Below, piece after piece: positions 16,823 through 23,406 of a DNA stretch of 64,000 bases. The notes under the pieces were generated by a model, which saw only the letters and a list, made by a program, of their open reading frames with translations, had not been told where the DNA came from and did not search any database. Position numbers and translations under genes: made by a program. The stretch lies in the NCBI RefSeq assembly GCF_018141445.1, contig NZ_CP058649.1, positions 825,001-889,000 on the forward strand, read 5' to 3'. Position 1 is the first letter of the stretch, and each line of letters opens with the position of its first letter. This stretch comes from Vallitalea pronyensis. Its GTDB lineage: Bacteria; Bacillota; Clostridia; Lachnospirales; Vallitaleaceae.

Positions 16823-16915
16823 TCATGTATAATATGTATGTGGGTGTGTAAAAGTTAAGGGTTATATGACAAGTTGGGCTACAATAAATCTAAAAATTGC
16901 TGGGGGATTTCTATT

Positions 16916-17650
16916 ATGGACTATAATATTACAATTTGTGATGATGAAGCCATTCAAGGTGACATTGTAGAAAGAATGGTGTTAGAGGGTGCTGCAAGGT
17001 TAAATATCCGTGCCAACATTTATAAGTTTTTATCGGGGAAGGAACTGATGCTTTATTTGAATGCCCACAATACCCAGATGCATATCGCATTCTTGGATAT
17101 GGAGATGGAAGGTATGGATGGCATACAGCTGGCCAGAGCCATTAAAACATGTTGTGAGGATGTGCTCATTATCTTTGTCACAGGTTATAAGGATTATGTA
17201 TTTGATGTTTTTGAACTCGGTACCTTTAGATATCTGTTAAAACCTGTTCAACCTAAGGTATTTACGAAGGCTTTTGAGGATGCTATTCATGCTTGGAACA
17301 AACATCATCTCCCAATGGAGGATGAGTTCTTAATTATTAACAAGAACAAAGAGAAGATTATGATTAAGTATAGCAGTATACGTTATCTTGAAAAGTATAA
17401 AAATAAGATTTTGGTTAAAACGGATAATGAGGATATTGAGTTCTATGGGACGTTTAGTGAATTGAATTATCTCCTGGAAGGCACGTGTTTTATTAAAGTG
17501 CATCAAGGTTATATTGCAAATATGGACAAGATTGAGTTGATTACATCAAAAGAAGTCCTTTTGAAAGATGGTAGCCGCATACCCGTTAGCAGAAGAAATG
17601 CTAAAGAAATTCGAGATAATTTCTTAAGTCGAATGAGGGTGTCCATATGA
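16916..17650 (+). CDS. agrA: AgrA-like LytTR response regulator
   Basis: 244-residue response regulator. The receiver domain (1-120) has acidic residues D9/D10, phospho-acceptor D61 in HIAFLDMEMEGMDG and the switch Lys in RYLLKPV. The DNA-binding LytTR domain (about 140-240) shows IRYLEKYKNKILVKT, FIKVHQGYIANMDKIELI and DGSRIPVSRRNAKEI. Start ATG 16916 follows GGGGGA (16902-16907) by 8 bases; an in-frame upstream TTG at 16874 has no RBS. The gene overlaps the histidine kinase start by 4 bases (ATGA). With the kinase and AgrB downstream it forms an Agr peptide-sensing circuit. The agr symbol is by function and context. Confidence 0.88.
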   Translation: MDYNITICDDEAIQGDIVERMVLEGAARLNIRANIYKFLSGKELMLYLNAHNTQMHIAFLDMEMEGMDGIQLARAIKTCCEDVLIIFVTGYKDYVFDVFELGTFRYLLKPVQPKVFTKAFEDAIHAWNKHHLPMEDEFLIINKNKEKIMIKYSSIRYLEKYKNKILVKTDNEDIEFYGTFSELNYLLEGTCFIKVHQGYIANMDKIELITSKEVLLKDGSRIPVSRRNAKEIRDNFLSRMRVSI

Positions 17651-18978
17651 TTTGGTATTTTATAGAGTATTTTATTGATATAGTAGAAGCCATTACCATT
17701 ATTATTTTTTTGAATGGTATTTACAAAAAACGGTACAAATCAGCTAGTACATATTTTATAGGAGGATTTATGCTGACAAATATTATTTTTGGATTTAACT
17801 ATCTGGCTAAACATTCCAGACATCCTGTCCAGTGTACGTCTATAACAATGATTATTCTACTGTTTGTCGTTGTTTATTGGCTGTATAAAGAACCTTTACA
17901 TCGTTTGCTGATTAGTTATATTGGCTTATTGATTTTTATTATTGCAATTGAGGGCATTGTATTATCCTTACTGAGTATTGCATTTAAACAATCACCTGGT
18001 TTTTTCGCAGAGCAAAATATTTTTCGAGTAGTGGGTATGTTTACATCCAAACTATTAATTTTCTTAATCGTTATCATGTTCATTAGCTTTGGATTAAAGA
18101 ATGGGAGGCTGATTGTTAAGAAAAGAATTATACTTGAAATTGTCGTTTTATTTTCAATCAATCTTAGTATTATGATCAGTATTTTACCTGTGTATAAAAA
18201 TATATTGTATGTGCATGATGAGAATGGTTTTATTGCGGGAATAGTTATATTGGGTTTAGGCTTTATTAATATACTATCCCTACTCATCTACCTTAGAATT
18301 ATTCGGCAAGCCCATCATGATATTGATTTGCAATTGCGATTGCAGCAATATGACATGCAATCCAAGTATTTAGATGAGATTAATTATGCTACCATGAAAT
18401 TAAGAAGTCTGAGACATGACATGTCCAATCACTTGGGTAATGTACAGGGTCTGGTAAGATATAAAGAATATGACAAACTAGAAGAATACTTGAGTAAGCT
18501 GTTGACGGATATTGAAGATGTTGATCAAATGATTATAACGCGAAATCCTGCCATATCTGCTTTGCTTAACCGGAAGAAAACTTTAGCAGATAAGCATGAT
18601 ATACATTGTTCCATGAACATACAATACATGGATGAGATTCTTATGGATGACCTGGATCTCTGTATCGTTTTAGGGAATATATTGGATAATGCTATAGAAG
18701 CAAGTCTTAAACTGGAGCAAAAGGATCGCTATATAAAGATTGATATTCGGAATATAGAAAAATACATTATCATTGATTGCGTCAATAGAATCGCTGTGAA
18801 TTCTAAATCTACACTTCAAACCACCAAAGATAATAAGATATTGCATGGCATTGGTTTATCCAATGTGAAGCAGATTGTTAAAAAATATCATGGCAGTATT
18901 GATATATCCTCCATAAAAGATTACTTTACAATAACCATCACCATGTATAATGATACACTAGATAATAGCAGTTCATAA
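17647..18978 (+). CDS. agrC: AgrC-like GHKL sensor histidine kinase
   Basis: 443-residue membrane kinase. The N-terminal ~220 residues contain about six hydrophobic spans (for example FIEYFIDIVEAITIIIFLNG, SYIGLLIFIIAIEGIVLSLL, IAGIVILGLGFINILSLLIY), the receptor module for a cyclic peptide in AgrC proteins. Then come a coiled linker, the phospho-acceptor box SLRHDMSNHLGNVQGLVRYKE ' (His in RHD) ' and a GHKL ATPase with N-box NILDNAIEAS and G-box HGIGLSNVKQIVKKYHG. Its ATG overlaps the agrA stop. A terminator hairpin overlaps the stop codon. The order agrA-agrC then agrBD differs from the staphylococcal BDCA order. Confidence 0.88.
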   Translation: MIWYFIEYFIDIVEAITIIIFLNGIYKKRYKSASTYFIGGFMLTNIIFGFNYLAKHSRHPVQCTSITMIILLFVVVYWLYKEPLHRLLISYIGLLIFIIAIEGIVLSLLSIAFKQSPGFFAEQNIFRVVGMFTSKLLIFLIVIMFISFGLKNGRLIVKKRIILEIVVLFSINLSIMISILPVYKNILYVHDENGFIAGIVILGLGFINILSLLIYLRIIRQAHHDIDLQLRLQQYDMQSKYLDEINYATMKLRSLRHDMSNHLGNVQGLVRYKEYDKLEEYLSKLLTDIEDVDQMIITRNPAISALLNRKKTLADKHDIHCSMNIQYMDEILMDDLDLCIVLGNILDNAIEASLKLEQKDRYIKIDIRNIEKYIIIDCVNRIAVNSKSTLQTTKDNKILHGIGLSNVKQIVKKYHGSIDISSIKDYFTITITMYNDTLDNSSS

Positions 18979-18995
18979 GTAACTGCTGTTTTTTT
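18967..18995 (+). terminator. Terminator overlapping the agrC stop codon
   Basis: AGCAGTT (18967-18973) pairs with AACTGCT (18981-18987), followed by a T-rich tract. The agrC TAA lies in the loop. Confidence 0.8.
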
Positions 18996-19200: not shown

Positions 19201-19947
19201 GTGATATACAAACTTTCAACCAAGATATCAGACAAGCTTGTGAAGAAAGGTATAATACAAGAAGATGATATAGAAGTGTATAATTACGGATTTGAAATTA
19301 TAATATCATCTCTCTTAATATTTTTGGGTATGATGACTTTGGGGATTGTCTTTAAATGTATAATAGAAGTAATTATATTTATGGCGTTTTTCTGTTTGTT
19401 GCGGATACAGGCAGGAGGATACCATGCAAAAACCCATCTACAATGCTTTAGTTTCTTTGCATTATCTTGTTTCTTTGCAATTGTCATAAGCCGTTTATTA
19501 TTGGGATATGATAAAAATTATGTGATTATGATGCTTGTACTGATTGAATCTTGTATTATTATTATGTCCTATGCACCGGTTGATACCGAGAACAAGCCAT
19601 TAAATGATTCCGAAAAAATTAACTATAAGAGTAAAAGTATTGTTACAGTTGTAGTTCAGACGAGTATTATACTTATTATGAGAAGCTTATATAGTGGATT
19701 TCAAGTGTATTATATGGTTGCTGCTATTGCTATTCTCATTGAATCAGTAACGGTGCTGCCAATAATAAATAAAAGAAGGAAGCGGGGTCAAAACATGTTA
19801 ACAAGTATCAACAAGAAGATTGGGTCACAGGTATTAGGTTTAATTGGTTTACTTGGCGTTGCTGTAGCTTCACTATCTATTCAAACAGCGTGTATTTGGT
19901 TTTTTAATCAGCCAAAGGTTCCTGATAAACTAAGGAAAAATGACTAA
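19201..19947 (+). CDS. agrB: AgrB peptide-processing protease with in-frame AgrD propeptide
   Basis: 248-codon ORF. Residues 1-198 are a normal-length AgrB: several membrane spans and the processing site RIQAGGYHAKTHLQC, with catalytic His75 and Cys82 at almost the same positions as in staphylococcal AgrB. Instead of stopping, the frame continues through RRKRGQN into a 50-residue AgrD-like sequence (199-248): MLTSINKKIGSQV, a hydrophobic amphipathic helix GLIGLLGVAVASLSIQ, a TACIWFF signal region with Cys231, and the conserved charged tail NQPKVPDKL. Start GTG 19201 with AGAGGGGGA just upstream. An internal ATG at 19795 with GGGG 7 bases before it could also give free AgrD. No stop or frameshift separates the two parts. 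Confidence 0.88.
   Translation: MIYKLSTKISDKLVKKGIIQEDDIEVYNYGFEIIISSLLIFLGMMTLGIVFKCIIEVIIFMAFFCLLRIQAGGYHAKTHLQCFSFFALSCFFAIVISRLLLGYDKNYVIMMLVLIESCIIIMSYAPVDTENKPLNDSEKINYKSKSIVTVVVQTSIILIMRSLYSGFQVYYMVAAIAILIESVTVLPIINKRRKRGQNMLTSINKKIGSQVLGLIGLLGVAVASLSIQTACIWFFNQPKVPDKLRKND
19795..19947 (+). CDS. agrD: Possible separately translated AgrD-type autoinducer propeptide
   Basis: The same frame as the end of agrB. If initiated at ATG 19795 it gives a 50-residue propeptide with all AgrD parts: N-terminal amphipathic leader (1-29), predicted macrocycle C33-I-W-F-F37 and recognition tail NQPKVPDKL. CIGGGG-like leaders are absent; the best Shine-Dalgarno is GCGGGGT, seven bases upstream. The ring boundary is inferred from the usual four residues after Cys. 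Clostridial AgrD peptides with Cys-x-Trp-Phe rings are known as I recall. Whether the peptide is made free, by processing of the fusion, or both cannot be told from sequence. Confidence 0.55.
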   Translation: MLTSINKKIGSQVLGLIGLLGVAVASLSIQTACIWFFNQPKVPDKLRKND

Positions 19948-20084
19948 TAACGTGCGTAAAGCAATTTAAGTTGGACAAGTGGTATACTCATATATGTATG
20001 TTATCTAACCCTTAGCGGATAATGTATGTGTAACAGGCCTTGTGCCGCTTGGCAGGCTTAAGAGCTACAAGTTTTTTCCTTTTA

Positions 20085-20113
20085 AATATGGATGTCTCAT
20101 CCATATTTTTTTT
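20085..20113 (+). terminator. Terminator downstream of agrBD
   Basis: Perfect 10-bp stem AATATGGATG-TCT-CATCCATATT (20085-20107) running into eight T. The 137 bases between the agrBD stop and this hairpin hold compact inverted repeats (GCC-GCTT-GGC, CTTGT/ACAAG) with no ORF. From 20118 to 20183 a further nested CAATAACC/GGTTATTG stem occurs; nothing else is seen up to 20421. Confidence 0.88.
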
Positions 20114-20436: not shown

Positions 20437-23406
20437 ATGAAAAAGCTTGTTACGTACATATGTGTGTTGACGCTTATGCTATCGTCCATAGCTGTTAACG
20501 CTGCAACAGATCCTGGGATACTAAAAGAACAGGTTCAAAATGTTTATGTGGCTAAGTCAGGAGCAAAAGCCATTATTGAAAATCTTAAGTTTTCAGATGT
20601 GACACCAAATAGTTGGGCTGTTGAACCCATTATGCGGTTTGGAGCCCTTGAAGTTATAAAAGGGTACAATGAAAGAGGTAGAAAAGCCTATCGGCCAAAA
20701 GCAAACATTACCAATGAGGAATCCTTAGCTGTTCTATTAAGAGTACTTGGTATGGAAGCAGAAGCACAACAAGCAGGTTATCAATTGCTGACAGATAATC
20801 CGGATTTACCAGACCATGTGTTAACTTTGTGGACAAAAGGCTACTTACAATTGGCCACAAACATGGGGCTCATCACCCAAGATGATTTAGATGATGCCCT
20901 TATGGAAGAACAAGATGAATTACTGCCAGAAGAGAATTTTATTCGCCGTGGTCCTATCACAAGGGAACAATTGGCTGTATGGCTTGTTAAGGCCATGAAT
21001 AACAAGGACCCTAATACCATTGCACCTCTATATGAACAGCAAGAGGTCTTTAACTACGGTGATTGGGAAAGGATAGACTCGGAGAATATACCCTATGTAG
21101 AAGCAGCTATCCAGAAAAAAATCTTAGTAGGCAGCCACGGACAATTCAACCCAAAAGGTTATGTGACCAGGGAACAAATGGCACAGGTGCTAAAGAACAT
21201 GGATACCATGGTATACGATACCCTTAATGTGCGATTAGAAGGTGGTATGGTGGCTTATGTAGAAGACAGCAATGTTATGGGAGCAACCAGCAGTAAAGCC
21301 AAAAGACGTATTTTTATGCGAGATGAGAGTGGAAACGTTAATGAGGTGGCTTTTGAATATGAAAAAAACGCTAATGATCAGGTATTTACAAAAGACGTTC
21401 CTGTACTGATTGATGGTACGGTAGGTGGACTTTTATCCCTTAGAGAAGGGGAATACATAGAATACCTTGTTGAGAAAACCACAAACGAAATGGTGTATGC
21501 TTATGGTAAAGGATTAAGTACACCTTATCTCTTAGAAGGGGCGCTTCAACCATTAACGGATATAGAAAACAGCCGTATAACCATTAAGAATGCATCCAAT
21601 GTGGCCTTTACTTATCCCATAAAAGCAAGCCTTTATAATAAAACAACCCAAAAGCTATGGATGAATGATATGGAAGTAGCCATAGAACATGCACCTATCA
21701 GTAAACAGGTAGCACTTACTATTGAGAATAACCTTGTAACCAAGATCAGCACAGTTAAAGGTGAAACATTATTTACAGAAATCAGTGGTATTGTCAAAGA
21801 AAATGAACCCCTATTTGGTTATATCACCATCATCACTTGGGATGGCAGGGAACTAACAAAGCATTACAAGAGCAGTATATCTGTTGAAAAACAGCAGTAC
21901 TATGATACAGAAGATGAAATTGGATATATGGACGAAATGTTTCCAGATTTCAGATTCGACCCTAGAGACAGCGATGTTAACGATATTGAAGCAGGGGACA
22001 TGGTTTTCATGCGTTTAACGCCAGATGGTAGTGGTATTGTATCCATTAGTGCGAAAACCAACTATATTGTTAAATATGGCACCATCAAATACATGGTACA
22101 CAATGGGACAGAAGGCATTCGATTGAATGTGGCATTTGATGATCTGAGCACAAGTGTTTTTGACGTACCCGCTAACATTCCTGTTAAAAAAGCTGGTAAG
22201 AATCTAACCCAAGGAGACTTAAGAGAAGGACAAGTTATTAAGATGCTGATTAATCAAGCTGTATTTGAGCCTGGTACCATGACAGAGCTGGTAAAAGAAA
22301 TCCAGATTGATGAATATGGCAATACAATTACCAATGTCTATAAAGGTAAGCTAGGGAACCTGAATGAGGCAGGGCGTAGTCTTACGTTACAAAATACCTA
22401 TACACTGACAAAAGCAGGTTGGCGGAATTATGAAAAGGCTAAAGTATTGGATATCTCCAATAAGTACATCACTTATTTTCTAGATGGTAAGCAGATTTCA
22501 CTGGATTATGCCATGAATTATCTGAAGCTGCAAGATATTGATGTGTATGTAGCCATGGAACAATATTATGACGATGAGAAAATCATTAAAGTCAACTTTG
22601 GAACAGGTAGAGATCAGATACTTAGTGAAGATAATGTAACCTACTCTAATGGTTTTAATGCTTTCAGAATGTTGAGCAGTACGCAAAATATTCGTACCAA
22701 TCCTGGTACCATTGTTGTAAAAAACGGCAAGTTGCTGGAAAGCAATAACATTGTAGCACCAGACTATGCACAGGTTGTTCTTAACGGTGCTTATTCAGCA
22801 GCTGTGGTGAATATTACACCTGAGCCAAGTCATGCAGGTCTATCTATATTCAGAGGACGTGTGAAAGACATTAATCAACATGTGAACATGACGGTACAGA
22901 GCTTCGCCTTGTTAGGGGGCATGAACTGGATCTATTCACCTATCCCACGTGTGTTTAATACGGATTATGACACGGTTATTATGGATAGTAACGGTCTTGT
23001 TCCACATGAAGATTTTATTGATTATACGGATAAGACAAAAGTAAATAAGGTATATACCATCATTGCTGATGGAACCAAAGCCAAATACATTGTGGAAAAT
23101 CCCTACTCCAAAGAAGGCGTAAAGGGAGAAATCTATGAAATAGGGACTGACCATATCAACATAAAAGATACCATTGTCTATCATGTAGCTAACAATCAAT
23201 GGCAAGATCTAAGTTATACCAATAGTTACGCTAAGATTAACTTAAAAAACAACAGTATCATTGTTAAAAATAACCAAGTCATTACCCCGGATCAGTTAGA
23301 AACTGGAGATGTTATCAGGGTATTAACAACAGAATACCTGATCAGTAAGTTAGCCAGTACAGGTGCTAGAGATGTGGACGGTTACATCATATTGGTTGAA
23401 AGGTAG
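20437..23406 (+). CDS. Large S-layer-homology (SLH) domain surface protein
   Basis: 989-residue exported protein. Signal peptide MKKLVTYICVLTLMLSSIAV ending in NAA. Residues ~45-270 hold three SLH units (FSDVTPNSWAVEPIMRFGAL ... YRPKANITNEESLAVLLRVL; then the segment around RRGPITREQLAVWLVKAM; then PYVEAAIQKKILVGSHGQFN ... VTREQMAQVLKNM), which tether proteins to pyruvylated cell-wall polymer. The remaining ~700 residues are beta-rich repeats with recurrent turns such as GDMVFMRLTPDGSG, LREGQVIKML and LETGDVIRVLTTEY, resembling small barrel or SH3-like modules; no enzymatic motif is seen. Start ATG 20437 after GGAGG. It is the first of three closely spaced export-related genes. Confidence 0.85.
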   Translation: MKKLVTYICVLTLMLSSIAVNAATDPGILKEQVQNVYVAKSGAKAIIENLKFSDVTPNSWAVEPIMRFGALEVIKGYNERGRKAYRPKANITNEESLAVLLRVLGMEAEAQQAGYQLLTDNPDLPDHVLTLWTKGYLQLATNMGLITQDDLDDALMEEQDELLPEENFIRRGPITREQLAVWLVKAMNNKDPNTIAPLYEQQEVFNYGDWERIDSENIPYVEAAIQKKILVGSHGQFNPKGYVTREQMAQVLKNMDTMVYDTLNVRLEGGMVAYVEDSNVMGATSSKAKRRIFMRDESGNVNEVAFEYEKNANDQVFTKDVPVLIDGTVGGLLSLREGEYIEYLVEKTTNEMVYAYGKGLSTPYLLEGALQPLTDIENSRITIKNASNVAFTYPIKASLYNKTTQKLWMNDMEVAIEHAPISKQVALTIENNLVTKISTVKGETLFTEISGIVKENEPLFGYITIITWDGRELTKHYKSSISVEKQQYYDTEDEIGYMDEMFPDFRFDPRDSDVNDIEAGDMVFMRLTPDGSGIVSISAKTNYIVKYGTIKYMVHNGTEGIRLNVAFDDLSTSVFDVPANIPVKKAGKNLTQGDLREGQVIKMLINQAVFEPGTMTELVKEIQIDEYGNTITNVYKGKLGNLNEAGRSLTLQNTYTLTKAGWRNYEKAKVLDISNKYITYFLDGKQISLDYAMNYLKLQDIDVYVAMEQYYDDEKIIKVNFGTGRDQILSEDNVTYSNGFNAFRMLSSTQNIRTNPGTIVVKNGKLLESNNIVAPDYAQVVLNGAYSAAVVNITPEPSHAGLSIFRGRVKDINQHVNMTVQSFALLGGMNWIYSPIPRVFNTDYDTVIMDSNGLVPHEDFIDYTDKTKVNKVYTIIADGTKAKYIVENPYSKEGVKGEIYEIGTDHINIKDTIVYHVANNQWQDLSYTNSYAKINLKNNSIIVKNNQVITPDQLETGDVIRVLTTEYLISKLASTGARDVDGYIILVER

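Follow-up and report, generated by a model that had tools for sequence, protein, structure and literature searches.

AgrB and AgrD form one uninterrupted reading frame in Vallitalea pronyensis, in which AgrD is probably also translated from its own internal start

Within a 64,000-nucleotide stretch of the Vallitalea pronyensis genome (contig NZ_CP058649.1, positions 825,001 to 889,000 of the forward strand; hereafter the window), the gene for the quorum-sensing peptidase AgrB runs, without a stop codon, into the sequence for its propeptide AgrD. This in-frame run is confirmed as a real feature of the window, and we consider it probable that the locus works as a nested pair like that of the enterococcal Fsr system, with free AgrD started at an internal ATG at 19795 and processed by the AgrB part. 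A first-pass annotation, made from the letters of the window alone, had recognized the continuous frame and described it as a single-chain quorum-signal generator, on the premise that agrB and agrD are separate genes in described loci. The frame itself is as described there; the description as a single-chain generator goes beyond the evidence, and the premise overlooks fsrB and fsrD of Enterococcus faecalis, which a passage in PMC7028047 reports to be in frame. The parts of the frame, in coordinates of the window, are these:

19201 to 19947, + strand: AgrB-AgrD uninterrupted reading frame, 248 codons from a GTG start (open reading frame listing and profile matches)
19201 to 19788, + strand: AgrB part, codons 1-196, with His75, Cys82 and the basic end NKRRKRG (PF04647 and alignment)
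19776 to 19788, + strand: Shine-Dalgarno (SD)-like stretch for agrD inside the end of agrB, AAGGA at 19776-19780 and GGGGT at 19784-19788 (pairing with 16S RNA)
19789 to 19791, + strand: codon 197 (CAA, Gln) in the linker, directly before which the relative P0006 ends (sequence and alignment)
19795 to 19947, + strand: AgrD part, 50 codons from the internal ATG, comprising leader, core and tail (TIGR04223)
19891 to 19905, + strand: predicted thiolactone ring Cys-Ile-Trp-Phe-Phe, read from the sequence
19906 to 19944, + strand: AgrD C-terminal tail NQPKVPDKLRKND, the predicted product of AgrB cleavage (sequence and family model)

The frame is open from its GTG to a TAA (253 codons from stop to stop), with zero stop codons between the two parts, and each part is recognized by its own family model. 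AgrB is matched over residues 6-182 (PF04647, 137.1 bits against a cut-off of 23, E = 5.5e-40) and AgrD over residues 211-246 of the same protein (TIGR04223, 37.6 bits against a cut-off of 19), the AgrD part scoring 40.3 bits against that cut-off when taken alone. His75 and Cys82, which we take to be the catalytic residues of AgrB, are present as the first-pass annotation had noted; they do not vary across the 12 rows of an alignment that includes the window's protein, and are at least 90% conserved in a 32-row alignment, two rows of which are AgrD only. The ring C-I-W-F-F and the tail NQPKVPDKL that it had named can likewise be read directly from the sequence.

Loss of a stop through an error of sequencing or assembly, for which a single base change would suffice, is scarcely conceivable as the source of the fusion. 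A search of 5.8 billion proteins returned 36 proteins, four of which span both parts: the window's own protein and three from other contigs (P0003, 88% identity, 248 aa; P0004, 87%, 235 aa; P0005, 74%, 249 aa), each the same uninterrupted AgrB-AgrD fusion and each, like the window, with Gln at codon 197. These three further fused sequences refute such an error unless all share it. The same four fused proteins came up when the AgrD part alone was used against proteins of ~136-434 aa (4 of 19 candidates), and among short proteins it found two stand-alone AgrD sequences, from V. longa (78%) and V. maricola (74%). The best-scoring named relatives of the fused protein are Vallitalea AgrB proteins. 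In a tree of the AgrB part with 13 rows, the four fused proteins make up one clade with support of 98/99, from which a single origin of the fusion and some upkeep of it follow; the fused state extends down to 74% identity. The first-pass annotation had also considered that all close relatives might have separate genes: the two genes lie in separate frames in the five other genomes of the genus examined, and P0003-P0005 are fused.

Those five genomes (G001-G005) carry orthologous AgrB and AgrD at the orthologous locus, as the window does, with 52-63% identity between their AgrB and that of the window; in 5 of 5 the genes are in different frames. In the named relatives V. guaymasensis, V. maricola and V. 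longa, unlike in the window, the proteins are separate, with an AgrB of 199 aa or an AgrD of 50 aa. The CIWFF ring residues are identical in three of the five (G003, G004 and G005), and in these three agrB, counting its stop, extends 7 bases into agrD. Between a shared AATAATAAA and the agrD ATG there are 34 bases in the window against 33 in G003-G005 (counted by eye and also aligned), and because the window thus has one base more, a one-base change of phase would suffice for the merge. Another relative, P0006 (65% identity), has its last residue at the position just before codon 197, which is Gln in the fused proteins, so that an in-frame stop at this codon is possible in the ancestor; P0006 is available as a protein only, from a contig of 1728 bases with whose end its own may coincide, and its position in the 13-row tree lacks resolution. 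We infer from these comparisons that the merge came about either through a one-base phase change or because a single in-frame stop, at codon 197, was lost. It would date to the common ancestor of the four fused proteins and have been retained because AgrD still had its own start.

How often agrB and agrD fall in phase was assessed in 177 loci (one of them a 10-base stub), from which a script extracted 74 distinct pairs in which AgrB closely precedes AgrD. Of these, 37 are overlapping pairs in different frames, 23 do not overlap and also differ in frame, 11 share a frame with an intervening stop and 3 are fused; a further 81 AgrD-like frames, repeats included, have no upstream AgrB by the criteria of the script. 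The set is not random, as L071 and L078-L096 were chosen for long frames and L001-L040 are relatives of the window. Among overlapping pairs 3 of 40 are in phase, where one third would be expected under free phase (P = 1.3e-4), and in the 80 regions that head the AgrD lists for class and phylum (passing over a few rows that were already sampled, close to the end of a contig or interrupted by a stop) there are 37 pairs, 11 of them overlapping and none of the 11 fused (P = 0.012). The pairs are mutually related, so these P values are only a guide. On this count, in-phase merges seem to be disfavoured, yet they exist.

The genome scans behind these lists covered 392 (order), 391 (class) and 398 (phylum) genomes for AgrD and 383 (order) and 348 (phylum) for AgrB, in overlapping samples. 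Frames longer than 165 codons, among the AgrD matches listed, were found only in the window (253 codons) and in G498 (277 codons). No fusion was found in 19 order-level AgrB loci with frames of 213-254 codons, nor in 20 phylum-level AgrB loci chosen mostly for long frames. The literature searched, including that on Vallitalea quorum sensing, yielded no clostridial AgrB-AgrD fusion in titles and abstract openings, most subscription papers lying outside the search.

The two other fusions lie in another Vallitalea agr locus and in a more distant genome. In G005, a separate agr locus (L037, the same as L076, 1652-2512 on the - strand) has AgrB running in frame into a Ser-type AgrD, PSWFLFGEIPCPKNLKK; it is a single case, found by protein similarity. 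In G498, a member of a distant clostridial family, AgrB and AgrD form one 277-codon frame (L071, 1148-1981, + strand), followed by a gene that, by reading of its translation, resembles a GGDEF + HD-GYP protein. Its nearest relatives have no such fusion: in G471 (50% identity) the two genes are read in different frames, while the agrB frame of G445 (51% identity) closes with a stop and the AgrD match is on a separate contig. The L071 fusion thus stands alone and may reflect a local sequence error, G498 being a draft of ~520 contigs. A different arrangement can be read from the DNA of G003 (L039, ~2020-2400), where two AgrD-like stretches seem to follow its second agrB, the first interrupted by a stop and the second intact.

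Whether the window's AgrD is made from the long frame or from a start of its own was left undecided by the first-pass annotation, which had pointed to the ATG at 19795 as one of the two routes. Among the 20 in-frame ATG, GTG and TTG codons, only GTG 19201 (-11.1 kcal/mol) and ATG 19795 (-11.3 kcal/mol) have SD pairing below -7.6 kcal/mol; the latter value, obtained with AAGGA and GGGGT paired around a bulge, is reached by 0.87% of 3560 random positions. The RNA around this start (19740-19835) is weakly folded, 196 of 200 shuffles folding at least as well. The Met encoded by the ATG (Met199) is shared by the four fused proteins and is the same Met at which the stand-alone AgrD proteins of V. 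longa and V. maricola (P0038 and P0039, 50 aa) are annotated to start. The residues RKRG, which overlap the SD-like stretch, are also kept in 4 of 4 fused proteins, while the spacer differs among them at residue 198 (N, K, N, H). An SD sequence and an ATG are found at AgrD in both other fusions as well (AGGAGG in L037, GGAGGAGGTGA in L071). Compared with G003-G005, AgrD has a dN of 0.14, a dS of 0.79-1.1 and a dN/dS of ~0.13-0.18, and by these estimates is under purifying selection. Retention of Met199, the SD-like site, the weak folding and the likeness to the Fsr layout together favour the internal start over a tethered chain acting in cis.

Several points weigh against free AgrD from this start. 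The value of -11.3 kcal/mol depends on the bulge; GGGGT alone gives -7.1, which does not improve on the strongest of the remaining in-frame starts in a broad scan (-7.6 at 19522) and is no gain over the -7.2 kcal/mol found at the same ATG in the unfused G003-G005. In the broad scan of 74 agrD starts, the window ranks 57th and these sisters 68th in SD strength, and conservation of the site in P0003-P0005 was judged from residues only, across four sequences. Overlap of the agrB stop with the start of agrD could help re-initiation in G003-G005, and the window lacks this overlap. The Fsr precedent is itself contested, since one review places fsrD in a different frame from fsrB (PMC3673130), in conflict with PMC7028047. 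On balance the SD-like site at ATG 19795 looks modest, and as good as that of the sisters.

We nevertheless regard an Fsr-like nested pair as the probable arrangement. Free AgrD would be translated from ATG 19795, and the AgrB part would cut it at the tail and cyclise it, giving a peptide with a five-residue Cys-Ile-Trp-Phe-Phe thiolactone ring that would be sensed by the neighbouring kinase and regulator. Because no stop intervenes, ribosomes that start at 19201 and finish should also yield a long AgrB-AgrD form in addition to the free AgrD; the AgrD copy carried by this form would be a minor substrate or a by-product, and may be cut as well.

Structure prediction bears on the AgrB part of this long form. 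From an input of 32 rows (4 fused, 2 AgrD-only and 26 AgrB-only), AlphaFold2 gave a confident AgrB with an N-terminal helix and six long helices (21-50, 54-70, 79-100, 106-124, 136-163 and 165-183), and from residue 201 on, in the AgrD part, block means of the per-residue confidence score pLDDT were 42-51, with no confident placement. A Foldseek comparison of the model with the PDB returned nothing at E <= 0.001, and sequence and profile searches of the PDB gave zero matches.

It is unlikely, though far from negligible, that the fused chain is instead the main or only source of signal, with AgrB processing its own C-terminal AgrD, or that of its dimer partner, once per molecule and another protease later freeing the peptide from the leader left on AgrB. 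The absence of a stop from all four sequences of the clade would agree with this, as would the modest SD and the lack of an agrB stop near the agrD start. The short basic linker NKRRKRGQN would also fit a cytoplasmic C-terminus beside a membrane-bound AgrD leader, given that basic stretches lie on the cytoplasmic side of membranes (the positive-inside rule). Fusions of enzyme and substrate are known in borosins, as part of PMC7878506 describes, and a candidate for the second protease could come from the six matches in the genome to the CAAX-protease family PF02517, the broad family to which MroQ is assigned in a section of PMC12312760. On the other hand, AgrD is accompanied by an internal ATG and SD-like site in each of the three fusions available as DNA, Met199 is retained throughout the clade of four, and overlapping pairs are seldom in phase (3 of 40), as though this were generally avoided. 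The AlphaFold2 model, in which the AgrD part is unplaced, gives no result either way on docking. A stricter form, in which this Vallitalea clade has fixed a self-processing generator whose AgrB cuts and cyclises its own C-terminal AgrD in cis or within a dimer while the leader stays on the spent enzyme, strikes us as rather improbable; if true, it would set signal output at one peptide per enzyme.

The fusion might also be a neutral or slightly harmful accident in an agr locus heading to decay. The rarity of in-phase merges and the presence in the same genome of another agr locus, whose agrB and agrD are separate, speak for this, but both parts of the fused protein are intact (His75, Cys82, and the core and tail of AgrD), the fused state is shared down to 74% identity, and the low dN/dS of AgrD, though it spans time before the merge too, points the other way, making decay a very unlikely account.

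The nested pair would depend on its neighbours for sensing, and the fused frame is adjoined by a sensor kinase and a LytTR regulator, as is typical of an agr locus, in the gene order A, C, then BD. The neighbouring features are:

16874 to 17650, + strand: AgrA-like response regulator with receiver and LytTR domains (Response_reg 50.4 bits, LytTR 67.8 bits; TTG start as listed)
17647 to 18978, + strand: AgrC-like membrane histidine kinase with GHKL ATPase domain (HATPase_c_5 80.9 bits)
18964 to 18990, + strand: terminator-like hairpin at the end of the kinase gene (consensus match only)
20084 to 20108, + strand: terminator-like hairpin 3' of agrD (consensus match only)

The kinase matches the Staphylococcus AgrC model weakly (39.8 bits, far under the cut-off of 500). 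Two terminator-like hairpins were found in the agr region against a mean of 0.2 in shuffles, and because they flank agrBD, they suggest that agrBD is a transcription unit separate from the kinase and regulator genes. No Rfam family was found in the window at the gathering score. After agrD, at 20004-20021, lies an 18-base string, TCTAACCCTTAGCGGATA, which also follows agrD in G002; it occurs once each in these two genomes, is absent from the other four genomes of the genus examined and, by eye, could fold as a small bulged hairpin, without an Rfam match. Further downstream, 20437-23406 encodes a protein of 989 aa that carries S-layer homology domains. The genome comprises 6.33 Mb in two contigs, and its second agr locus (G000:C1:5676816-5677497; L002 and L075) has AgrB with a separate AgrD that overlaps it out of frame, bears the Ser-type core SSWFLFGETSCPKSLRK and adjoins a frame resembling, by reading of its translation, a GHKL kinase.

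The fusions described here indicate that an in-frame layout like that of fsrB and fsrD is found outside enterococci too, and that overlapping agrB and agrD genes have given rise to it repeatedly. In sequence records such a locus can appear as a single long AgrB, as is the case for P0003-P0005, so that the signal peptide can be missed. They may also be of use for the topology of AgrB, whose published models place both termini at the cis or both at the trans side of the membrane, according to a section of PMC10196373; because the AgrD tail removed by AgrB is described there as degraded in the cytoplasm (Figure 1 legend), a natural AgrD on the C-terminus of AgrB would be a direct handle on the question. 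In these in-frame loci each enzyme chain also carries one substrate, which bears on signal output.

The likeness to Fsr concerns how the pair would work, and is not a claim that the pair belongs to the Fsr family proper. The fsrD of E. faecalis is said to have been found by Nakayama et al. in 2006 to be translated independently of fsrB. As a passage in PMC7028047 has it, the propeptide FsrD is encoded in frame with its processing enzyme, with no stop between, which is also the layout found in the window; the same passage reports that a truncated FsrB lacking the in-frame FsrD part still acts on FsrD, and gives the gene order as fsrABDC, compared with A, C, BD in the window. The signals would differ, a five-residue Cys ring being predicted for the window and the E. 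faecalis peptide GBAP, QN[SPNIFGQWM], having a nine-residue Ser ring; the autoinducing peptide of Clostridium perfringens agrBD, [CLWFT], has a five-residue Cys ring with residues similar to CIWFF (both peptides from a portion of PMC12312760). Bacillus subtilis 168 has served for work on other agrBD pairs (PMC13151043). Borosins of the OphMA type, methyltransferases with the core peptide at their own C-terminus, likewise hold enzyme and substrate in one chain, as part of PMC7878506 sets out, and differ from the window protein in their unrelated enzyme and chemistry. Because fsrD of E. faecalis has been reported in frame with fsrB, the AgrB-AgrD frame of V. pronyensis is, by analogy, not the first of its kind; it is a clostridial case, and a rare variant, of a known layout.
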